This document shows positions 36,842-58,438 of a DNA stretch of 64,000 nt, in pieces. The position numbers and the translations under genes were made by a program. The notes beneath the pieces were generated by a model, which did no database searches, had not been told where the DNA came from, and saw nothing but the letters and a program-made list of their open reading frames with translations. Source of the stretch: Streptosporangium sp. NBC_01495 (lineage in GTDB: Bacteria > Actinomycetota > Actinomycetes > Streptosporangiales > Streptosporangiaceae); the NCBI RefSeq assembly GCF_036250735.1, contig NZ_CP109430.1:8494001-8558000 (forward strand), read 5' to 3'. Position 1 is the first letter of the stretch. Each line of letters starts with the position of its first letter.

Positions 36842-37237
36842 ATGAACGCACTTCAACTCACGAGCGAGCACGCGAACGACTTCGCGGTCATCACGGTGGC
36901 CGGTGAGCTCGACCTCGCCACCAGGCCGGACCTGTCGGCCTTCACCCGGGACGTCATCGACGCCCGCCCCGGCACGGTCATCATCGACCTCGCCGGTGTC
37001 ACCTTCATCGACGCATGCGGCCTGAGCGCGCTGATCGCCGTCAAACGGCACGCGCGCGAACAGGGCACGCCCCTGCTCCTCGCCGGAGCCCCACCCGTGG
37101 TGCTCAAGCTGCTGAGACTCACCAACCTCGACGCGTCCTTCACCGTGATCTCCCGCTCGGGAGCGATGAGCCCTCCGCCGGGCTGTTCCGAGGCCGCCTC
37201 ACACGTCCAGGCGGCCTCCCCTCTCGCCGACCGTTAG
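36842..37237 (+). CDS. STAS-domain anti-sigma factor antagonist
   Basis: This 131-residue STAS protein (ATG with GGGAAGTGGGCG upstream) has ITVAGELDLATRPDLSAFTRDVI and VIIDLAGVTFIDACGLSALIAVKR. At the regulatory site the phosphorylatable Ser is replaced: the loop reads IDACGL where ID(S/T)xGL is usual, so Ala-Cys occupies the Ser/Thr position and regulation by kinase phosphorylation is doubtful. The last 15 codons are duplicated immediately after the stop. No partner kinase is nearby. Confidence 0.85.
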   Translation: MNALQLTSEHANDFAVITVAGELDLATRPDLSAFTRDVIDARPGTVIIDLAGVTFIDACGLSALIAVKRHAREQGTPLLLAGAPPVVLKLLRLTNLDASFTVISRSGAMSPPPGCSEAASHVQAASPLADR

Positions 37238-37291
37238 AAGTCCGCCTCACACGTCCAGGCGGCCTCCCCCCCTCGCCGACCGTTAGAAGTC
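37195..37291 (+). repeat. 48/49-bp tandem duplication across the STAS stop codon
   Basis: Unit 1 (37195-37242) includes the last codons and stop of the STAS gene; unit 2 (37243-37291) repeats it with one extra C in the C-run. Both begin CGCCTCACACGTCCAGG and contain GACCGTTAGAAGTC. Confidence 0.9.
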
Positions 37292-37347
37292 CGCCCCCAC
37301 ACCCCGCCGCCCGGCCCCACGGAGACCACGTCCGGGGGCCGCCCGGA

Positions 37348-48564: not shown

Positions 48565-50154
48565 ATGTTGAATCCGCGGCGGAAGAGTGACCGCCTCAAG
48601 CCGACCGGCGGCACCGGCCCCGGCCCCGGCCCCGGCTCCGTCCCCTCGAACCCCTCCCAGCCCCGGCCCGGATCGGCCGACCCCACGCTCGCGACACCGA
48701 CCGACGACTCCCCCGTACGGTCCCCGTCCTCCGGCGGGACGCTCCATCCCGACCCCTCGACGCCGGAGAGCCCAGCCCGGCCGGAGAGCCTGGGCGGCAC
48801 GGTGGAGGAGAAGGCCAAGCGGCCCTCCGACACGGCACCACCGTCCCGCCTGGCCAAGACCAAGCGGAACGACGGCGCGACATCCCTCGGCCAGTCCACG
48901 GCGAGCGAGCCCGCCTCGATCAGAGTGCTGAAAGGGATCATCAAAGAGTTCGAGAAGACCCCCACCTCATTCGCGATCAAGCGCCTGTTCGGCAACGAGA
49001 ACATCGCTCTCCAAAGCCGGAAAAACGACATGGGCGACGTCGCCTACCAGGACGCGAAGAGGAGGCTCAAGCAGGAGTTGCTGACCGTCGGGAAACTGGC
49101 GAGCTACAGTCGCACGGCGCTCCGGCTGCGTCCGCTGGAGAAGCGCCGCATCCTCGACCTGCTGCTGAGCACCAGCAGGAGCGAGGATTTCATCACCGAC
49201 GCCCAGGAAGTGATGCTGGAATACGCCATCGAGGACATGGACGACTCCTGGTCCGCCGTGGAGATGATCATCTTCTACGGTACCGACGGCCTGAGCCTTT
49301 CGGAGAAGCAGCGACTGATCGCTCGTATCATCGCCGGCTCCACCACACTGGACCCCGACGCCGGCGCCGCCCTGGGCACGCTGTACCTGTCGGCCGGCCT
49401 CGCTCCGGACTTCACCCGGCACGACCACGAGATCCGGACCCGGGTCCTGACAAGGCTGAAGACGGAGCTCATGGACGAGTGCCGGAGGTGGCCCACTCTG
49501 AGCCTGGACCAGAGGCTCGAAGCCCTGAAGAGGGTCCGCGACATCCAGTGCGCCGAAATGGGCATCGGCCACCAGAGTCCGGAAATCCTCCCGGTGAAGG
49601 ACCTGGGGTGGTTCACGCCGAACGGATGGGTCCCCTGCAGCGGACTCTTCATCCCCAGGGAGAACGTCATCAGGATGAACACGAGCTACCCCGGCTGGGA
49701 CGACTTCGACGAGGTGATCGACACTCTCGTACACGAGAACACACACAACTACCAGAAATGGCTGGTCTCCCAGCTGTACGCCGACCAGCCGATGGACGAG
49801 AGCGACCCGCGCCACCTTCAGGCCACCCTGTTCGCGCTGAACCAGGGGCACGGATACCTGATCCTCGATGAGGCCCACCTCGACAAGGACCTGGCCAACC
49901 AGATCTACAAGAGCCAGCCTAAAGAGAGACACGCCTTCCTGGCCGGAGGCGAGGCCAAGGTCGCGTTCCGGGCCGACGCGAAGAAGGAGGCGCAGAGCGT
50001 ACTCGGCCAGGTGCGGGAGGCCCTGGTACAGAGTCCAGGGGACAGCAAGCTGGAGCTCCTGGACAAGATGCTGTCCCACGCGATCGCCAACCAGAACCTG
50101 TCGTCGACCAGGATCTACGGGATCGTGGACACCGCTCTGAAGTCCCTGACCTGA
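48565..50154 (+). CDS. Uncharacterised 529-residue protein with an HExxH motif
   Basis: I do not recognise the family. Residues 1-115 are disordered, rich in Pro, Gly and Ser (GTGPGPGPGSVPSNPSQPRPG). The rest is mostly helical and charged. Near residue 390, VIDTLVHENTHNYQKWLVSQ contains HENTH, an HExxH zinc-peptidase signature, within a predicted helix; KERHAFLAGGEAKVAF some 60 residues later could supply a third ligand. There is no signal peptide. The protein has lower GC than its neighbours, stands among gene remnants, and starts at ATG behind GGAAGGA. A toxin-like or effector peptidase is possible but unproven. Confidence 0.7.
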   Translation: MLNPRRKSDRLKPTGGTGPGPGPGSVPSNPSQPRPGSADPTLATPTDDSPVRSPSSGGTLHPDPSTPESPARPESLGGTVEEKAKRPSDTAPPSRLAKTKRNDGATSLGQSTASEPASIRVLKGIIKEFEKTPTSFAIKRLFGNENIALQSRKNDMGDVAYQDAKRRLKQELLTVGKLASYSRTALRLRPLEKRRILDLLLSTSRSEDFITDAQEVMLEYAIEDMDDSWSAVEMIIFYGTDGLSLSEKQRLIARIIAGSTTLDPDAGAALGTLYLSAGLAPDFTRHDHEIRTRVLTRLKTELMDECRRWPTLSLDQRLEALKRVRDIQCAEMGIGHQSPEILPVKDLGWFTPNGWVPCSGLFIPRENVIRMNTSYPGWDDFDEVIDTLVHENTHNYQKWLVSQLYADQPMDESDPRHLQATLFALNQGHGYLILDEAHLDKDLANQIYKSQPKERHAFLAGGEAKVAFRADAKKEAQSVLGQVREALVQSPGDSKLELLDKMLSHAIANQNLSSTRIYGIVDTALKSLT

Positions 50155-50512
50155 GCGGCCTAAGCGCCTATCGGGAGGTTCCGCCCGTGGACGGGCGTGG
50201 GATCGCCGGGAGCTTGTTCCGCGTCGGCGGACACCGTTGGCGCGGCGCCCAGGCGGCCGGGGCGGCCGGGGTGGTCAGGGTGGTCAGGGTGGTCAGGGTG
50301 GTCAGGGTGGTCAGGGTGGTCAGGGTGGTCAGGGTGGTCAGGGTGGTCAGGGTGGTCAGGGTGGTCAGGGTGGTCTGGATGGCCTCGTGGCCATCGGGTC
50401 TCACGTGACCGAGACCGCTGACGGAACCGGAGCCTTTTCCAAGATCCACCCACCACATGCCGAAACCCGGCCCGCGGGCATGATCCGGACCGGGTTTCCG
50501 CTGGTCGACGGC
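50155..50512. other. Intergenic stretch with minisatellite and start of duplicated segment
   Basis: It contains the 9-bp repeat array (listed separately) and, from about 50421, the left copy of the segment duplicated from downstream of the acyl-CoA dehydrogenase gene. Open frames across the array are artefacts of the repeat. Confidence 0.6.
50271..50378. repeat. 9-bp minisatellite, 11 perfect copies plus one variant
   Basis: GTGGTCAGG repeats head-to-tail from 50271 to 50369, with a final GTGGTCTGG at 50370-50378. Being a multiple of three, the array opens several reading frames (for example GGQ or DHP tripeptides), but none has a start signal or a recognisable flank. Confidence 0.95.
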
Positions 50513-50584
50513 CTACTTCAGGAGCCGCCGAACCATCACCACGCGCTGGATCTGGTTGGTGCCCTCGTAGATCCGGGTGATCTC
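50513..50584 (-). pseudogene. Duplicated 3' end of the acyl-CoA dehydrogenase gene
   Basis: The minus strand reads EITRIYEGTNQIQRVVMVRR and then LLK and stop, the last 23 codons of an acyl-CoA dehydrogenase, nearly identical to the end of the intact gene at 51549. Similarity continues beyond the stop to about 50421, matching 51458-51548, with small indels. The copy is cut off at its 5' side. Confidence 0.85.
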
Positions 50585-50728
50585 CGATGCCGCAACGGGG
50601 CACCTGGGAAAACATCTCGATCATGGGATGAGCAGCGGTTATTCTTGTGGACGTCTCGTGTCACTTCTCGCTGCTTCTGGTGCTCCCACGGAACGGCGAC
50701 GGAACAGAGCAGAAGCTTGGAGGTGCCC
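50585..50728. other. Upstream region of the small plus-strand gene
   Basis: These bases follow the break of the duplicated segment and hold no gene. TTGGAGGTGCCC at the end is the Shine-Dalgarno for the gene at 50729. Confidence 0.35.
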
Positions 50729-51199
50729 ATGGCGATGCCCAGGAAGGGCTCACGGCTCATCAGCGTCGACGGCACCGCCTTCCGCTGGCGGATCAGGCAC
50801 AAGCCCACCTACCACCAGGGAAACAGCTGGACTCCCCTCACCGTCACCGTTGAGCGGACCGAGGAGCCGAGGCGTGTTCTCGTGGTGTCACTTCCCTGCG
50901 CCCGGCCGGACAACTGGCTCGGAGAACGGACGATCGCGGTCCGCCCCGCCCTCGTCGCCGGATGCATCCGGCGAGCCATCGAACAGGGATGGAACCCCGG
51001 GCAACCGGGCCCGGCGTTCACCCTCACCGTCACCGAGGACGAACTGACCGTGCTCTTGGGCGAACCGCCTCAGTACCTGATCCCCTTCCTCTGGGGCATG
51101 ATCCCTGAAGGCGGAGGCATCGAGGACCTCCCCCGATGCACCGAAATCTGGAGCCGGGACAAACAGCGCACCGGCCAGGCACCTTCTGACGCTCCGTAG
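50729..51199 (+). CDS. Hypothetical protein, 156 residues
   Basis: ATG 50729 has GGAGG five bases upstream. The product is a soluble protein with features KGSRLISVDGTAFRWRIRHKPTY, LTVTVERTEEPRRVLVVSLP, PDNWLG and AGCIRRAIEQGWNPGQPGPAFTLTV. Similar small proteins are found scattered in actinobacteria and planctomycetes without known function. It sits inside the segment bounded by the two copies of the acyl-CoA dehydrogenase 3' end, which marks it as inserted or retained DNA in the accessory island. Confidence 0.7.
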   Translation: MAMPRKGSRLISVDGTAFRWRIRHKPTYHQGNSWTPLTVTVERTEEPRRVLVVSLPCARPDNWLGERTIAVRPALVAGCIRRAIEQGWNPGQPGPAFTLTVTEDELTVLLGEPPQYLIPFLWGMIPEGGGIEDLPRCTEIWSRDKQRTGQAPSDAP

Positions 51200-51231
51200 G
51201 CAGGTGAACCGCGCCGGGTTTTGACGTACCC

Positions 51232-51400
51232 CGAGCTCGCTGGAGCCGGCCCGTCGCGGAGTCCCACCACATCTCGAAGTCGACGATCTCCCCAGCCGAG
51301 CGCCCGAAAGGTCGCCGTCCAGCCAGGCAAGGCGCTCCTGTCCGGTGTCGGTCTCTCGGCCGGACCGCTCGATCAGTTCCCAGAAGGCATCCGCGAACAT
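51232..51400 (-). pseudogene. Frameshifted DUF4240 fragment
   Basis: From ATG 51400 the frame reads MFADAFWELIERSGRETD and then TGQERLAWLDGDLSG, the start of a DUF4240 protein. The next conserved part (SAGEIVDFEMWWD) is in another frame, so a frameshift near 51300 splits it. The sequence stops resembling the family soon after, so this is a truncated relic. Confidence 0.65.
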
Positions 51401-51548
51401 TCCTGTACAGATCACGACCGTCCTCGTCCGCAGTCCGTGAAGCTCTCACGGAACAGAGACGGAACAGGGCCTCTTCCAAGATCCACCCACCACATGCGAA
51501 ACCCGGCCCGCAGGCATGATCCGGACCGGGTTTCCGCTGGTCGACGGC

Positions 51549-52712
51549 CTACTTCAGGAGCTGGCGAGCCATCACCACGCGCTGGATCTGGTTCGTCCCC
51601 TCGTAGATCTGAGTGATCTTCGCGTCGCGCATCATGCGCTCGACCGGGTAGTCGCTGGTGTAGCCGTACCCGCCCAGGAGCTGGACGGCGTCGGTGGTGA
51701 TCTCCATGGCGGCGTCGGAGGCGGCGCACTTGGCGGCGCTGGAGAGGAAGGTGAGGTCCTTCTGCGGCTCGCCGTGCATGGCCAGCTCGGACCTGGCCGC
51801 GGCGGCGTAGGTGAGCTGGCGGGCGGCCTCCAGCTTCATGGCCATGTCGGCGACCATGAACTGGACGCCCTGGAAGTCGGCGACGGCCTTGCCGAACTGC
51901 CTGCGCTCCTTGACGTAGCCGATCGCGTAGTCCAGCGCGCCCTGAGCGATGCCGAGCGCCTGGGCGGCGATGGTGATGCGGGTGTGGTCCAGGGTGGCCA
52001 GGGCGGTCTTGAAACCGGTGCCCGGCTCGCCGATCATCCGGGACGCGGGGATCCGGACGTTCTCCAGGATGACCTGGCGGGTCGGGGAGCCCTTGATGCC
52101 GAGCTTGCGCTCCTTGGCCCCGAAACTGACGCCCTCGTCACCCTTCTCCACGACGAACGCGGAGATGCCCCTGGCCCCGACGCCCGGCTCGGTGACGGCC
52201 ATCACCGTGTAGTACTCCGACACCCCGGCGTTGGTGATCCACATCTTGGCGCCGTTGAGCACGTAGTGGTCGCCGTCGAGGACCGCGCGGGTCTTCATGG
52301 CGGCGGCGTCGCTGCCCGCCTCGGCCTCGGAGAGGGCGTACGAGAACATCGCGTCACCCCGCGCGACCGGCGTGAGATAGTTCCGCTTGAGCTCCTCGGA
52401 AGCCGTGAGCAGCAGCGGAACGGTGCCGAGCTTGTTGACGGCCGGGATCAGCGAGGACGAGGCGCAGGCCCGCGCCACCTCCTCGATGACGATCACCGTC
52501 GCGAGGGCGTCGGCACCGGCGCCCCCGTACTCCTCGGGAAGATGCACGGCATGCAGGTCCGCCGCGACGAGCGCCTTGTAGACGTCCCAGGGAAACTCCC
52601 CGGTCTCGTCGGCCTCGGCGGCGCGAGGGGCGATCTTCTCGTCGGCGAGAGCGCGGACCGTCTCGCGGAGCATCTCGTGCTCCTCGGGCAGTGCGTAGAG
52701 AGGGTAGCTCAT
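51549..52712 (-). CDS. Acyl-CoA dehydrogenase (FadE25-like)
   Basis: The 387-residue flavoenzyme introduces a 2,3-double bond into an acyl-CoA thioester. It has MFSYALSEAEAGSDAAAM and KMWITNAG (FAD/substrate loop), RQFGKAVADFQGVQFMVADMA, and the catalytic-base region QIYEGTNQIQRVV near residue 367. ATG 52712 has no Shine-Dalgarno; TACTAT ends six bases before it, indicating a leaderless transcript. The gene diverges from UDP-glucose dehydrogenase. Its last 70 bases and downstream flank are copied at 50421-50584. In mycobacteria the fadE25 gene is a neighbour of purE/purK. Confidence 0.93.
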   Translation of the reverse strand: MSYPLYALPEEHEMLRETVRALADEKIAPRAAEADETGEFPWDVYKALVAADLHAVHLPEEYGGAGADALATVIVIEEVARACASSSLIPAVNKLGTVPLLLTASEELKRNYLTPVARGDAMFSYALSEAEAGSDAAAMKTRAVLDGDHYVLNGAKMWITNAGVSEYYTVMAVTEPGVGARGISAFVVEKGDEGVSFGAKERKLGIKGSPTRQVILENVRIPASRMIGEPGTGFKTALATLDHTRITIAAQALGIAQGALDYAIGYVKERRQFGKAVADFQGVQFMVADMAMKLEAARQLTYAAAARSELAMHGEPQKDLTFLSSAAKCAASDAAMEITTDAVQLLGGYGYTSDYPVERMMRDAKITQIYEGTNQIQRVVMARQLLK

Positions 52713-52856
52713 GGGCAAATAGTAGGACGTCCAACAAAACATGGAGCGCTCCACCCCAGGTGATATGTACCCCGGCGTTTGCGCAGGTGGCAAAGTAGAA
52801 GCGCCAGATGCCGGTACCCTGTCGGCAAAGATTGGGCAGAACCGAAAGGAGCACCA

Positions 52857-54176
52857 GTGGCCTACCGCCTGACGATGGTGGGAACCGGATACCTCGGTGC
52901 GACGACGTCCGCATGCATGGCCGAGCTGGGCTTCGAGGTCCTCAGCCTGGACGTGGACGCGGAGAAGATCGCCCGCCTGCAGGCCGGCGATCTGCCCATC
53001 TACGAGCCGGGCCTGCAAGAGGTCCTGCGCCGCAACCTGGCCAACGGCCGGTTGCGCTTCACCACCTCGTACGAGGAGGCCGCGGCCTTCGGAGACGTGC
53101 ACTTCCTGTGCCTGGGCACCCCCCAGAAGCCGGGAGAGTACGCCGCGGACGTGTCCTATCTGGACGCCGCGATCGAGTCGCTCGCCCCCCACCTCGACCG
53201 CGAGTGCCTGATCGTCGGCAAGTCCACCGTCCCGGTCGGCACCGCACAGCGTCTCGCCGACAAGCTGGCCCGGCTGGCCCCCATCGGCGCGGGCGCCGAG
53301 CTGGCGTGGAACCCCGAGTTCCTCCGCGAGGGCTTCGCGGTGAAGGACACCCTGCACCCCGACCGGATCGTGCTCGGTGTCGCCTCCGACAGGGCCGAGA
53401 AGATCATGCGGGAGGTGTACGCCCCCATGCTGGAGATGGGCACCCCGATCGTGATCACCGACTACCCCACGGCCGAGCTGGTCAAGGTGGCCGCGAACGC
53501 CTTCCTCGCCACGAAGATCTCCTTCATCAACGCGATGGCCGAGGTCTGCGAGGCCGCCCACGCCGACGTCAAGCAGCTGTCCCTGGCGCTCTCCTTCGAC
53601 GACCGCATCGGCGGCAAGTTCCTCAACCCCGGGCTCGGCTTCGGCGGCGGCTGCCTGCCCAAGGACATCCGCGCCTTCATGGCCAGGGCCGGTGAGCTCG
53701 GCGCCGACCAGGCGCTGACCTTCCTGCGGGAGGTCGACGCGATCAACATGCGCCGTCGCGCCCGTATGGTCGACCTGGCCCGCGAGCTGGCCGGGGGTTC
53801 CTTCCGAGGCTGCACAGTCGCGGTGCTCGGCGCCGCGTTCAAGCCCAACTCCGACGACATCCGCGACTCGCCCGCCCTGGACGTCGCCGTCAAGATCAGC
53901 GAGCAGGGTGGCCGGGTCACCGTCTACGATCCCGTCGCCCAGGAGAACGCCCGCAAGGCCCACCCCGGGCTCTCCTACGGCGCCTCCGCCCTCGACGCGG
54001 CCAAGGGCGCCCACGTCGTGCTGCTGCTGACCGAGTGGCAGGAGTTCATCGCCATGGATCCCGAGGAGCTGGGTTCCGTCGTCGCCTCCCGCAAGATCGT
54101 CGACGGCCGCAACGCCCTCGACGCCGAGACCTGGCGGGCCTCCGGCTGGCACTACCGCGCCCTGGGCCGCCCCTGA
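52857..54176 (+). CDS. ugd: UDP-glucose 6-dehydrogenase
   Basis: GTG 52857 follows AAAGGAGCACC. The 439-residue enzyme oxidises UDP-glucose twice to UDP-glucuronate using NAD. It has the Rossmann motif MVGTGYLGATTSACMAELG, KSTVPVGTAQ, WNPEFLREGFAVKDTLHPDRIV, the catalytic cysteine in FGGGCLPKD near residue 265, and the C-terminal domain VLGAAFKPNSDDIRDSPALDV. UDP-glucuronate would serve the glycosyltransferases in this window. It is transcribed away from the acyl-CoA dehydrogenase. Confidence 0.94.
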   Translation: MAYRLTMVGTGYLGATTSACMAELGFEVLSLDVDAEKIARLQAGDLPIYEPGLQEVLRRNLANGRLRFTTSYEEAAAFGDVHFLCLGTPQKPGEYAADVSYLDAAIESLAPHLDRECLIVGKSTVPVGTAQRLADKLARLAPIGAGAELAWNPEFLREGFAVKDTLHPDRIVLGVASDRAEKIMREVYAPMLEMGTPIVITDYPTAELVKVAANAFLATKISFINAMAEVCEAAHADVKQLSLALSFDDRIGGKFLNPGLGFGGGCLPKDIRAFMARAGELGADQALTFLREVDAINMRRRARMVDLARELAGGSFRGCTVAVLGAAFKPNSDDIRDSPALDVAVKISEQGGRVTVYDPVAQENARKAHPGLSYGASALDAAKGAHVVLLLTEWQEFIAMDPEELGSVVASRKIVDGRNALDAETWRASGWHYRALGRP

Positions 54177-54378
54177 GTCCAGCTGAGTCCGGCTAAGTCC
54201 GGCGCTGGGTTCGGCGCGCCCACCCCGCACCGGCCCCTTTCTTCCGCCACGGCCCGTTTCTCCGGTACGCGGAGCGGATCATCCCGGGCATGACAGCGGG
54301 TTCCCGGCCTGTGCCGGGAACCCGCCGGGTAAGCGTCGACCTCTCAGACATCGCATCGGTCGCCATGACCTTCTCGCA

Positions 54379-54501
54379 TCACCAGCCCCAATAATCCCAG
54401 CGGCGCCAGCGACGCCAGCGGCGCCAGCGACGGCGGCGGCGACGACGCCAGTACGGATCGTGGGCAGGCCAGGCGCCTCCCGGGAACATCGTGATACCCA
54501 T
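54379..54501 (-). CDS. 40-residue Arg/Trp-rich peptide (novel small ORF)
   Basis: ATG 54501 follows AAGAGGTGTCCCG on the minus strand. The 40-residue product is MGITMFPGGAWPAHDPYW, then seven Arg, then three WRR units, ending WDYWGW. It has 15 Arg and 8 Trp residues and would be strongly cationic and amphipathic. Codons for Arg vary (CGT, CGC), so this is not a simple DNA repeat. The composition resembles Trp/Arg antimicrobial or nucleic-acid-binding peptides. It is preceded by a long AT-rich leader with an inverted repeat. No homolog is known to me; a spurious ORF remains possible. Confidence 0.55.
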   Translation of the reverse strand: MGITMFPGGAWPAHDPYWRRRRRRRWRRWRRWRRWDYWGW

Positions 54502-54875
54502 CGGGACACCTCTTTTCGTAGTAATCCCTCGGACATGACAATTACTACGATATGCGGCATTTCATCACAAAATACACCAAATCGCCCCCAAGTTAACTCT
54601 GGAACGCTTTTGATCGGCATTACAGTAAAACCACTCGCGTCACAACAAAACGAATCGCCTCATAAAACCACTTCTTCCTGCGCGTTCGACAAAAGGACCT
54701 TTACCCTGGCGGGAAAACGGCCGCCGAGGGCGCGAGCCCCGTGGGTGCCGCGCCTTTCGCCAGGTCACCCCGGCAGGCGGCCCGATCGCGACGACCGGGA
54801 AAGGCCACCGGGAGCACGCAGCGAGAAGGCCCCCGTCACCGACGAGGGCCTTCTGTCCGTCCCGGTCCTGCCCGG
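54502..54875. promoter_or_regulatory. AT-rich leader region with candidate promoter
   Basis: The stretch from about 54515 to 54700 is far more AT-rich than the rest of the window. On the minus strand TTGTTG, 18 bases and TGTAAT (about 54620-54655) form a plausible promoter, followed by a 120-base leader to the small peptide gene. Bases 54700-54875 carry no recognisable gene. Confidence 0.5.
54518..54548. repeat. Inverted repeat before the small peptide's ribosome-binding site
   Basis: GTAGTAAT (54518-54525) and ATTACTAC (54541-54548) are exact inverted arms with a 15-base loop. The hairpin ends five bases from the Shine-Dalgarno of the peptide gene, a position suited to an operator or translational control. 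Confidence 0.65.
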
Positions 54876-55112
54876 TCAGTTGTCGAACTCGCCGAGCTTC
54901 ACACCCCCGACGAAGGCGTCCCACTCCGAGCGGGTGAAGAACAGCTTCGGCCCGTCGGGATTCTTGGAATCGCGCAATACGTAAAGAGAACCTGACCCGG
55001 CCTTGTGGCCCTCTTCGGGGGCGTCGACAACGGCCACCTCGACGCAGTTACCGCCGTCGTCCCCCTCCGGGACCGCCTTGCGCCAGACGGCCTTGCTGAG
55101 GTCTGCTTCCAC
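54876..55112 (-). CDS. DUF397 domain protein
   Basis: This 78-residue protein (GTG 55112, AGGTGAT upstream) has the DUF397 features AVWRKAVPEGDDGGNCVEVAV, VLRDSKNPDGPKLFFTRSEWDAFVGGVKLGEF. DUF397 proteins are actinobacterial small proteins usually paired with a helix-turn-helix regulator, as in the BldB-like and AbaA-like families; their mode of action is unclear. Here no HTH gene is seen upstream on the same strand, so this is an orphan copy. Confidence 0.9.
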   Translation of the reverse strand: MEADLSKAVWRKAVPEGDDGGNCVEVAVVDAPEEGHKAGSGSLYVLRDSKNPDGPKLFFTRSEWDAFVGGVKLGEFDN

Positions 55113-55519
55113 GTCGTCATCACCTTCGCTATGTCGGCGGTCGCCCAGCGGGCGGAGTCATTCGAGCGGATCGCCCCGTAACGCCGGCATGCCTCCGTCA
55201 CGCCCCGGGGATGATCCGTGACGTGCCCTCCGGCGACGGCTCCGCGAACGGCGGCGGGCTCCACGCACACAGTATCCGGGCCGCCCCCGGCACTCGCAAC
55301 GAACACGGACACCGAGCGGGCGCGCTTCCTCGGGCCGGCCCCGCCGCGTCACGGGGAGCGACGTCTCGCCCGGCCGTGCGTCGTCGAGGGGACGACGTGA
55401 CACCCGGCGCGGCGCATGCCGATGGCCGTATCGCGCGAGCCGGCCGGGTAGACCCTCGCCAGGAGACCGTCGAAGAGTCGGCGCAGGTCAGCGCCACTTT
55501 CAGCCCGAAGGAGACCAAG
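55113..55519. other. Intergenic region upstream of DUF397 and HD genes
   Basis: I see no intact gene in 407 bases. Divergent promoters for DUF397 and the HD-domain gene must lie here. GAAGGAGACCAAG at the right end is the Shine-Dalgarno of the HD gene. Confidence 0.35.
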
Positions 55520-56158
55520 ATGACCGTTCGTATCGCGGACGTGGAGATTCCCGACAGCGCCCTGGCGCGGGCGGCCACCGAGCTCGTCCGGGCGGCGGCC
55601 GAGCCGCTGGTGTACGACCACTCCCGGCGGGTCTTCCTGTTCGGCGCGTTCGTGGGCGACCGCGAGGAGCTCGCCTACGACCCCGAGTTGCTGTACGTCG
55701 GCGCGATGTTCCACGATCTCGGCCTGACCCGGACCTACCGGACCTCCGACCAGCGCTTCGAGATCGACGGCGCGGACGAGGCCCGCCGGTTCCTGAGGGA
55801 GCACGGCGTGTCCGAGGAGAGCTCACGTGTCGTGTGGGAGGCGATCGCGCTGCACACCACACCGGAGATACCGCACCACATGGCCCCGGAGATCGCCCTG
55901 GTCACCACGGGCGTGGAGGCCGACGTGCTGGGGATCGGCCTGGACGCCATCCCCGACGAGGCCCGCGCGGAGATCGTGGCCGCCCATCCCCGCCCCGACT
56001 TCAAGCGCCGCATCCTGGCCGCGTTCACCGACGGCATCGCCCACCGCCCGCAGACGACCTTCGGCAACGTGAAGGCCGACGTCCTGGAGCGCTTCGTTCC
56101 GGGGTACGTCCGTACCAACTTCGTCGACGTCATCGAGAACTCCGCCTGGCCCGAATGA
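55520..56158 (+). CDS. HD-domain hydrolase family protein
   Basis: The 212-residue protein has a conserved HD-type metal-binding order: PLVYDHSRRVFLFGA (His near residue 33), MFHDLGLTRTY (HD near 65), AIALHTTPEIPHHMAPE (His near 112-120), VEADVLGIGLDAIP (Asp). Such proteins, related to cyanamide hydratase and HD phosphohydrolases, act on small molecules or nucleotides; the substrate here is unknown. It stands alone between DUF397 and the small membrane peptide gene. The ATG start follows GAAGGAG. Confidence 0.85.
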   Translation: MTVRIADVEIPDSALARAATELVRAAAEPLVYDHSRRVFLFGAFVGDREELAYDPELLYVGAMFHDLGLTRTYRTSDQRFEIDGADEARRFLREHGVSEESSRVVWEAIALHTTPEIPHHMAPEIALVTTGVEADVLGIGLDAIPDEARAEIVAAHPRPDFKRRILAAFTDGIAHRPQTTFGNVKADVLERFVPGYVRTNFVDVIENSAWPE

Positions 56159-56194
56159 CGCGTTCCCTGAGATTCCAGGCGAGGCCGGCAGGGG

Positions 56195-56320
56195 CTAGCG
56201 CGTCGACACGGAACTCACGGCGGAGTCGACGGGCTTCCGGCTCTCACCGGTGCCCAGACTTCCGAACAGCGCCAGCACCGCCATCGTGAGTCCGAGGAGG
56301 GCGCGGATGGCGTTCCTCAT
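56195..56320 (-). CDS. 41-residue membrane or secreted peptide, hypothetical
   Basis: ATG 56320 follows TTGGAGGTTGAGCATC on the minus strand. The product begins MRNAIRALLGLTMAVLALFG, a short hydrophobic helix with a positive N-terminus, then a polar tail (ESRKPVDSAVSSVSTR). It looks like a small membrane protein or signal-anchored peptide. The strong ribosome-binding site and an AT-rich 5' side (TCAAAATATTTGAAG) support expression. No family is recognised; it is shorter than most gene finders accept. Confidence 0.5.
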   Translation of the reverse strand: MRNAIRALLGLTMAVLALFGSLGTGESRKPVDSAVSSVSTR

Positions 56321-56416
56321 GATGCTCAACCTCCAAAATATTTGAAGATCTGCTCCTTCCCCCCGCTTCCTCATCTATCCATCATGTTGTCAAGTTATCG
56401 GTCAAAGGCGGCGATA

Positions 56417-56920
56417 TCAGGCGCCGAGCTGGGCGGCTTCAGCCCGAAGTTTCGCGCCCTTGGCGTGGGCTTGATCCTTGAGAGCGAGCTGGAAGGCCTC
56501 CATCCTCGCCCGCAGGCCCTCGTCCGCGGCGGCGAGGATCCGTACGGCCAGCAGGCCCGCGTTGCGGGCGCCCCCGACGGCGACGGTCGCGACGGGAACC
56601 CCCGCGGGCATCTGCACGATCGAGAGGAGGGAGTCGAGGCCGTCGAGATACTTCAGCGGGACGGGGACACCGATCACCGGCAGCGGGGTCACCGACGCGA
56701 GCATCCCCGGCAGATGGGCGGCTCCCCCGGCACCCGCGATGATCACCTTCAGGCCGCGCCCGGCCGCCCCCGCGCCGTACGCGATCATCTCCTCGGGCAT
56801 GCGGTGCGCGGAGACCACGTCGGCCTCGAACGCCACTTCGAACTCGGCCAGCGCCTCCGCGGCGAGTTTCATCACCGGCCAGTCGGAGTCGCTGCCCATG
56901 ACGATGCCGACGGTGGTCAT
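56417..56920 (-). CDS. purE: N5-carboxyaminoimidazole ribonucleotide mutase
   Basis: The 167-residue enzyme converts N5-CAIR to CAIR in purine synthesis. It has the class I PurE signature [21 protein letters not shown], the active-site [11 protein letters not shown], and [29 protein letters not shown] 56920 has AAGGAGAAGTG upstream. It is downstream of purK in the same direction, but the two are separated by 360 bases of imperfect repeats instead of the usual short gap. Confidence 0.95.
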
Positions 56921-57280
56921 CACTTCTCCTTGCCTCGCGGCCCGGAGGCCGCGTGCGCTCGCGGTGGTGCCGTGGTCCGCGCCGGTGCGGCGCTTTCGGC
57001 GGTACGGGACTCCGGGTGATCCCGAAGTCCCTCGGTGGTGCAGAACTCCGGACGATCCCGGCGTCCCTCGGTGGTACGAGCCCCCGGACGATCCCGGCGC
57101 CCTTCGCTTCGGTGGTACTGCAGGCGTCCGTCCTTCGCCGACACGGATCTCCAGACCGTCCCGGCGCCCTTCGACGGTGCGAGGATTCCGGACGGTCCGG
57201 GCGCCTTCCGGTGCCACGAGGACCTCCGGCGGCCCGGCGCCCCTGAAGCGCCGGAAGAGCGGGCCGACCGGCTCACCGGC
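56921..57280 (-). repeat. Degenerate ~42-bp repeats between purK and purE
   Basis: The 360-base spacer is built from imperfect units such as CGGACGATCCCGGCGTCCCT and GGTGGTACGAG repeated four or five times at 57000-57200. On the minus strand it has no stop in one frame, but no domain is visible, so it is regarded as non-coding. Confidence 0.6.
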
Positions 57281-58438
57281 TCAGGTGTATCTTCCCTCGG
57301 TGAGGTAGACGGCCGCGTGCCGGGCACGCGCGCGGACCTCGTCGAGGTCGGTGCCCATCGCGGTGACGTGGCCGATCTTGCGCCCCGGCCGCACCTCCTT
57401 GCCGTAGAAGTGGACCTTGATTCCCGGGTCGTGGGCCATCACGTGCTCGTACCGGGAGAAGATGTCGGGGTCGTCGCCGCCCAGGAGGTTGGCCATCACC
57501 ACCACGGGGGCGGTCGGCGCGGGCGACCCGAGCGGGAGGTCGAGGACCGCGCGCAGGTGCTGCTCGTACTGGGAGGTGCGGGCCCCGTCGATCGTCCAGT
57601 GGCCGCTGTTGTGCGGGCGCATGGCCAGCTCGTTCACCACCAGCCCCGAGGAGGTGGCGAACATCTCCACGGCCAGCAGCCCGGTCACGCCCAGCTCCTT
57701 GGCGATGGTCAGGGCGATCCGCTGGGCCACCGCGGCCCACTCGGGGTCGAGACCGGGGGCGGGAGCGAGCACCTCGACGCAGATGCCGTCGCGCTGGACG
57801 GTCTCCACCACCGGGTAGCTGACGCCCTGCCCGTGCGGCGACCTGGCGACCAGCACGGCGAGCTCCCGCTCGAACGGCACGAACCCCTCGGCCATCAGCG
57901 GTACGCCGGAGGCCAGGACCTCGGTCGCGTCGTCCGCGGAGCGGCAGACCCAGACGCCGCGCCCGTCGTAGCCGCCCCGGACCGCCTTGAGCACGACCGG
58001 CCAGCCGTTCTCCGCGGCGAACCCCTCGACGTCGGCGGCCGTCTCGACCCGCCGCCAGGGCGGGCAGGGAACGCCGATCGCGGTGAGCCGCTCGCGCATC
58101 ACGGCCTTGTCCTGGGCGTGGACGAGCGCGTCGGCACCGGGGTGCACGGCGAAACCGTCCTCGGCCAGGGCGCGGACGTGCTCGGTGGGCACGTGCTCGT
58201 GGTCGAACGTGACCGCGTCACATCCCTTGGCGAAGTCGCGCAGGTCCGCCAGGGACCGGTAGTCGCCCAGGCGCACGTCGGCGATCACGCGGGCGGCGCT
58301 CTCGTCTGGCGAGTTGGCCAGGACCCGCAGTTCGATGCCGAGGGCGATGGCCGCCTGCTGTGTCATCCGGGCCAGCTGGCCCGCTCCGATCACGCCGACG
58401 ACGGGTCCGATGGGACTGGCCAAAGAAGGGCTGCTCAC
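57281..58438 (-). CDS. purK: N5-carboxyaminoimidazole ribonucleotide synthase
   Basis: The 385-residue ATP-grasp enzyme makes N5-CAIR from AIR, bicarbonate and ATP. It has VVGVIGAGQLARMTQQAAIALG, VTFDHEHVPTEHV, LKAVRGGYDGRGVWV (glycine-rich loop) and VNELAMRPHNSGHWTIDGARTSQYEQHLRAV. The GTG start has no Shine-Dalgarno; TAAACT lies about 13 bases upstream, so the mRNA may be leaderless. It feeds PurE downstream. Confidence 0.95.
   Translation of the reverse strand: MSSPSLASPIGPVVGVIGAGQLARMTQQAAIALGIELRVLANSPDESAARVIADVRLGDYRSLADLRDFAKGCDAVTFDHEHVPTEHVRALAEDGFAVHPGADALVHAQDKAVMRERLTAIGVPCPPWRRVETAADVEGFAAENGWPVVLKAVRGGYDGRGVWVCRSADDATEVLASGVPLMAEGFVPFERELAVLVARSPHGQGVSYPVVETVQRDGICVEVLAPAPGLDPEWAAVAQRIALTIAKELGVTGLLAVEMFATSSGLVVNELAMRPHNSGHWTIDGARTSQYEQHLRAVLDLPLGSPAPTAPVVVMANLLGGDDPDIFSRYEHVMAHDPGIKVHFYGKEVRPGRKIGHVTAMGTDLDEVRARARHAAVYLTEGRYT

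Follow-up and report, generated by a model that had tools for sequence, protein, structure and literature searches.

The window, a 64,000-nt stretch of the 11.1-Mb genome of Streptosporangium sp. NBC_01495 (G000), carries a gene for a small peptide rich in Arg and Trp that belongs to a family of exporter-linked cationic peptides defined in the present analysis. By sequence comparison the window gene is an orphan, pump-less paralog of this family, because the exporter and its own peptide (MTFKQLFPTGRYLDWGGGWGCCRRRRRCGCGGGGWWW) lie 2.2 Mb away, at locus L114. The reading that we favor, and to which we give an even chance, is that these peptides are leaderless, cationic and exported by their partner ABC pump, the window copy being a faster-evolving paralog without a pump. 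Its short ORF, positive charge, N-terminal motif and profile similarity place the window peptide in the family; it has no adjoining ABC exporter and is flanked by a convergent UDP-glucose dehydrogenase gene and a DUF397 gene.

A short coding gene on the minus strand

The small ORF singled out in a preliminary description of this DNA is real: the frame is kept in relatives, and changes fall mostly on third positions (11, 12 and 27 differences at codon positions 1, 2 and 3, summed over two orphan pairs). The peptide has a net charge of +11, with eight Trp among its 40 residues, and the plus-strand frame of 54379-54501 encodes no such peptide. The features of the locus are collected in Table 1. 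Reading of the codons confirmed the mixed use of Arg codons that had been noted, and the ribosome-binding site, described as good, lies where expected ahead of the ATG. The AT-rich pocket also held up, with a GC content of ~0.56 in windows over 54350-54799 vs 0.62-0.74 elsewhere within 50000-58000; the stretch upstream of the peptide is AT-rich for this genome.

Table 1. Position and strand of the peptide gene, its candidate signals and its neighbors in the window.
Feature	Position	Strand	Remarks
Coding sequence of the 40-aa Arg/Trp-rich peptide MGITMFPGGAWPAHDPYWRRRRRRRWRRWRRWRRWDYWGW	54379..54501	-	homologs, third-position bias
Ribosome-binding site AAAAGAGG	54509..54516	-	7 nt 5' of the ATG (54501)
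Perfect 10-bp inverted repeat	54516..54550	-	arms 54516-54525 / 54541-54550, 15-nt spacer
Candidate -10 region GCATATCGTAGTAATTGTCATG (weak)	54534..54555	-	by-eye likeness to GGGTATGAGTGCTAATGTCATG, upstream of the exporter-linked peptide of G010
Perfect 13-bp hairpin, terminator-like, without T-run	54296..54325	-	53 nt 3' of the peptide stop codon
Interval of 702 nt between the DUF397 and dehydrogenase stops, holding the peptide gene	54174..54875	-	GC 0.64; includes the dehydrogenase stop codon
UDP-glucose 6-dehydrogenase, convergent neighbor	52869..54176	+
DUF397 protein, same-strand upstream neighbor	54876..55112	-

The regulatory signals fared less well. A promoter of its own had been proposed for the gene; it is not supported, because a sigma-70 consensus scan found no promoter-like site, the candidate -10 region included. 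The inverted repeat near the start exists, and its arms have a single match genome-wide at a spacing of 5-25 nt, yet the regulatory role ascribed to it is not supported: the repeat is missing at the equivalent place in the two relatives that carry the gene at this locus (G003 and G008). We therefore dropped the operator, and with it the reading of the gene as a lone antimicrobial peptide under operator control. Downstream, a terminator scan found no T-tailed terminator and did not report the 13-bp hairpin; similar hairpins lie 3' of the gene in both relatives. There is no same-strand gene directly 3' of the peptide gene, the next gene being convergent, and Rfam models at gathering score matched nothing in the window.

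Could the ORF have arisen by chance from a GC-rich tandem repeat? Its R/W block indeed consists of a 9/18-bp tandem repeat. In-frame conservation, third-position bias and the family-wide exporter linkage described below speak against this, and we regard a chance origin as hardly credible.

Conservation and rate of change at the locus

The dehydrogenase ortholog is present in 15 of 16 genomes of the genus, in which G000 is placed together with G008 (S. amethystogenes NRRL B-2639). The peptide lies between the dehydrogenase and DUF397 genes in G000, G003 and G008, and in none of the other 12. The preliminary description had looked to close relatives for conservation of the frame: where the gene occurs the frame is kept, yet it occurs at this locus in just 3 of the 15 genomes. 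In a dehydrogenase tree the three carriers fall on one side of a branch (support 89/91, recovered in 86% of bootstrap trees), and a single gain of the peptide at this locus would thus be the simplest reading. The gap between dehydrogenase and DUF397 measures 702-814 nt in the carriers vs 61-81 nt in G010, G014 and G005, which have no peptide there; G009, G004 and G015 also have a long gap (926-1262 nt), without such an ORF.

Substitution rates are consistent with a coding gene that changes fast. For the G003-G008 pair of orphans, dN is 0.067 and dS 0.56, giving a dN/dS of ~0.12. The G000 orphan is more diverged (pN 0.26-0.27, pS 0.70-0.76), an estimate that is rough because the alignment runs across a repeat. 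Exporter-linked copies of the same genomes change mainly at synonymous sites: between G003 and G008 pN is 0.064 in the orphans vs 0 in the linked copies, and between G000 and G003 it is 0.26 vs 0.07. Nor is orphan pN low beside the dehydrogenase pS of 0.10 (G003-G008) and 0.18 (G000-G003). From these comparisons the window orphan is a coding gene that has kept its motif and charge; since its pN is high against the linked copies and not low against dehydrogenase pS, partial relaxation, or a relic state, of the orphans is possible. We saw no sign of constraint on synonymous sites within the peptide gene.

An exporter-linked peptide family

An alignment of two rows that included the window peptide found relatives in G003 and in G274, a genome of another genus; with four rows, one relative was found in each of the five genomes of that second genus, in all five directly upstream of an ABC exporter. 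The exporter is a single-chain ABC protein (ABC_membrane + ABC_tran). Counted at E <= 1e-110, it is present in 13 of 16 Streptosporangium genomes, and each of the 13 has such a peptide upstream of it. These linked peptides have an M-x-h-x-x-h-F-P start, a tail of Cys, Gly, Arg and Trp and mostly a W-W end.

A second, separate orphan occurs in G015, where an intact peptide is followed by a hairpin and then, by eye, by ~20 codons of a broken-off exporter start. It lies around 7545-7664 of L161 (G015:C1:373544-373663), and at 1501-1620 of L158. The peptide is identical to P0002, Streptosporangium becharense FHS43_001862, annotated by NCBI as 'hypothetical protein'; this direct family member is richer in Cys and Gly than the window peptide and is followed by the apparently truncated exporter start.

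Linkage extends beyond Streptosporangiaceae. At a threshold of E <= 1e-120, 394 genomes of the class gave at least 24 matches to the exporter, spread over 21 genomes and 7 families; three candidates were scored per genome, so this count may be incomplete. All 24 exporters have a small ORF next to them, mostly a basic one, on the same strand in 23 and divergent in one (G502). We then applied one fixed set of criteria (an ATG, an SD-like site, a length of 28-75 aa, a net charge >= +6 and a basic fraction >= 0.2); 37 of 46 exporter loci pass, compared with 6 of 56 dehydrogenase-family flanks and 5.2% of positions drawn at random from the window. Since some genomes contribute two loci and many are close relatives, the 46 are not independent; they exclude L119 and L120, which repeat L114 and L101, and L138, which was examined separately. 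One of the 37, L127, passed on account of a different ORF. Of the nine loci without an ATG candidate, eight have a same-strand peptide by eye, below the cut or GTG-started, and the ninth is that of G502, whose peptide was found when the opposite strand was examined after the first had given none. In G502 (L135, 1-1500) a small His/Arg/Lys-rich ORF (MSHHHGRRHRRPKKKP...) with its own SD-like site diverges from the ABC exporter; among 12 genomes of that family a divergent copy was found in G502 itself and in no other. G459 carries tandem peptide copies.

A constant start and a switching tail

The 51 peptides collected are 30-68 aa long and carry a net positive charge in nearly all cases. Charges span 0 to +15; unless His is counted, the peptides G671b (0), G019 (+1) and G502 (+3) fit the family only weakly in this respect. 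The N-terminal motif M-x3-5-h-[FLAIT]-P occurs in 42 of the 51, compared with a mean of 0.39 and a maximum of 4 in 2000 shuffles. As the motif was chosen post hoc and many rows are related, the shuffles show that the start is non-random and do not provide independent counts. The window peptide begins MGITMFP, which fits the motif, yet is one residue shorter than usual.

Behind this start the composition switches between lineages: Trp/Arg/Cys/Gly in the window's family, Lys/Ala/Pro or His/Arg or Gly/Arg in f20, Pro/Lys/Arg in f19 and His/Arg in f15. Tails outside the window's family lack Trp in 16 of 22 peptides and Cys in 20 of 22. Linked peptides at L129, L130, L132, L134, L137 and L138 are rich in Pro, Lys and Arg, e.g. 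MPLKKILPPPPKPKRPRRPHPRPLPRKPSHG, and in this respect resemble animal proline-rich antimicrobial peptides.

Two rival readings bear on this pattern. The peptide could be a non-exported small protein, cytoplasmic or at the membrane periphery, that associates with the ABC pump and modulates it, or a nucleic-acid binder. Strong positive charge and a C-terminal Trp would suit an anionic lipid or nucleic acid, and the peptide adjoins one transporter lineage in 7 families. However, the body of the peptide shifts its composition between lineages, which would not be expected of a subunit constrained by a conserved surface, and orphans persist with no adjoining pump, though the same genomes carry the pump elsewhere; we consider such a role improbable. 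Less probable by far is a RiPP precursor, for example one cross-linked through Trp or Tyr at its aromatic C-terminus by enzymes encoded elsewhere. An aromatic C-terminus and Cys pairs are conserved in the Streptosporangiaceae peptides and would fit a precursor, but most tails in other families lack Trp and most lack Cys, in the proportions given above, and the two neighbors of the window peptide are the dehydrogenase and DUF397. In addition, 15 of the 37 ORFs of >= 130 aa around L114 (in L162) were scanned besides the pump, and they included no modification enzyme or peptidase (six belong to housekeeping-type families, nine had no match).

The hairpin between peptide and pump

In the Streptosporangiaceae loci the order is small ORF, hairpin, ABC gene, an order that also suits regulation: the linked copies might be leader peptides, in which stalling in the small ORF would alter the downstream hairpin and allow expression of the ABC gene, with the window copy as a detached relic. 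A same-strand ORF lies upstream of the pump in 23 of the 24 class-wide matches; the window copy lacks this arrangement. In 21 of 23 loci the frame of the ABC gene is open across the hairpin. Its offset from the peptide frame is 2 in 18 of 23, and GTG codons in that frame overlap the Trp-rich end of the peptide. To judge from its layout, the arrangement looks like translational coupling, which would suit attenuation. A programmed frameshift fusing peptide and pump was set aside because the offsets differ (18, 3 and 2 of 23) and certain pump genes carry a start of their own. In 19 of the 23 loci (all but G023 L099, G042 L100, G014 L111 and G010 L115), the hairpin reads as variants of NESRRVTRRLSF in the ABC frame; paired S-to-N and L-to-F changes in hairpins of this type keep the stem.

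Covariation gave a mixed picture. The set comprised 15 chosen hairpins of equal length (29 nt), identical and longer ones being left out, and 97.8% of its cells pair. Nine cells changed on both sides and the covariation score was 0.210, and in neither measure was any of 500 shuffles as high; however, 79 of 500 shuffles were as high in double-change pairs and 344 of 500 in further pair types.

Several observations run counter to regulation by a leader. The ORF has been kept in orphans of two separate origins, neither with a same-strand target directly 3', and in G502, a single case, the ORF is divergent from the pump; if the peptides were leaders, these orphans and this divergent copy would need explaining. 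Ribosome stalling usually depends on later residues of a leader, but here it is the N-terminus that persists. The tails share no codon type, Trp being absent from most peptides outside the window's family, and peptide pS exceeds pump pS in 6 of 7 linked pairs. By contrast, the faster change of the orphans compared with linked copies agrees with the leader reading. BmrB, the leader peptide of the bmrCD ABC transporter of Bacillus subtilis (PMC4191407), offers a precedent in that, in the passages concerned, a small ORF and stem-loops lie immediately upstream of an ABC transporter gene. Unlike that system as described there, the present family has persisting orphans, one divergent copy and an N-terminus as its lasting part. 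On balance we think it unlikely that the linked copies are leaders, although export of the peptide and attenuation of the pump are not mutually exclusive.

Proposed export by the partner pump

Export of leaderless peptides, the reading that we favor, fits a fixed start with a free tail, the lack of an exporter peptidase and of a modification enzyme in the ORFs scanned, and the tandem and orphan copies. The peptides are short, apparently unmodified and mostly strongly cationic, and would be made beside a dedicated exporter. The conserved N-terminal M-x-h-x-x-h-h-P segment may serve as the tag that the exporter recognizes, and the hypervariable tail as the active part outside the cell, where, much like a leaderless bacteriocin, it could act on competing or kindred cells at their membranes, ribosomes or other anionic targets. 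The window copy might be exported by the pump encoded at L114, or act alone.

The cargo of the exporter is not fixed by homology. Among the matches listed, the solved structures nearest to the exporter are those of ABCB multidrug and lipid pumps; the yeast a-factor pump ranks lower. No peptidase domain was found in the three exporters scanned; with such nearest structures and no peptidase domain, a non-peptide cargo is possible. The antimicrobial or nucleic-acid-binding activity put forward in the preliminary description remains a guess from composition. An exported peptide is a better guess, because the family is linked to an ABC exporter, and the family's role may be that of a secreted antimicrobial or of a signal.

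More tentatively, and with a probability that we put well short of even, the loci could represent one class-wide two-gene system, in which a single exporter lineage and a conserved N-terminal tag would be combined with a tail that was repeatedly replaced (Trp/Arg/Cys, Pro/Lys/Arg, His/Arg, Gly/Arg). Such a system would be a bacterial counterpart of the cationic antimicrobial repertoire of animals, and the pump-less orphans would supply this pump with further peptides to secrete. Provided that the peptides do leave the cell and are active, antibiotic-producing bacteria harbor a simple class of cationic peptides that went unnoticed, its genes being tiny, of low complexity and hard to find by homology. 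The exporter provides a handle for finding this class, and the design of constant start and variable tail makes export testable.

Relation to known peptides

In composition, the family resembles the Trp/Arg-rich and Pro-rich antimicrobial peptides of animals, the indolicidin and Bac7 class. The likeness is one of composition only (R/W repeats in the window peptide, K/R/P/H repeats in the f19 relatives), and no homology is expected.

Leaderless bacteriocins of the aureocin A53 / lacticin Q type, with the Actinomycetota examples arachnicin and arcanocin (PMC11580447), are, like the family described here, short, cationic and Trp-containing and have no leader peptide; in the window peptide, which is likewise short, cationic and Trp-rich, absence of a leader was judged by inspection. 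ABC transporter-like machinery is described for aureocin A53 in the same source. That peptide has five Trp in 51 residues vs eight in 40 in the window peptide, whose Arg content is higher too. The passages of PMC11580447 concerned describe neither an N-terminal motif of this kind nor a tail that switches, and neither Streptosporangium nor Nonomuraea occurs in its main text. NCBIfam models matched neither the window peptide nor two relatives, and Pfam models matched neither of the two relatives. Actinomycete leaderless bacteriocins are thus already known; exporter-linked small cationic peptides with a constant start and a switching tail are an unusual design, and no description of the peptide-pump pair was found among the literature matches listed.

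Similarity searches and repeats in the window

Detection depended strongly on the query. A search with the single sequence matched 95 of 100 genomes at E <= 1, mostly noise, and the G003 and G008 copies were absent among the matches listed. The two-row alignment matched 9 of 341 genomes of the taxonomic family, of which we judged four real (G000, G008, G003 and G274) and five noise; it missed the four congeners of G274 that the four-row alignment recovered. With four rows, the class-wide search matched 13 of 394 genomes, the window's own and 12 judged to be noise, and the search of the genus gave three real genomes and four with weak matches only. A 13-row profile matched 19 of 26 chosen genomes and missed known copies in G010, G018, G237 and G274, so further orphans may be missed as well. 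The protein database returned nothing with the window peptide or the two-row alignment; with 13 rows it gave P0002 clearly (E 1e-6) and P0003 weakly (E 1.5). Two PLSDB records were matched, both without annotation.

Three further repeats were seen elsewhere in the window. A perfect 9-bp tandem repeat, GGGTGGTCA, runs for 11.9 copies at 50269-50375, inside overlapping ORFs. A direct repeat of ~150 nt, 85-93% identical, occurs at 50432-50586 and 51469-51622, with a spacing of ~1036 nt, and a 49-bp tandem repeat of 2.1 copies with 96% matches lies at 37194-37295.
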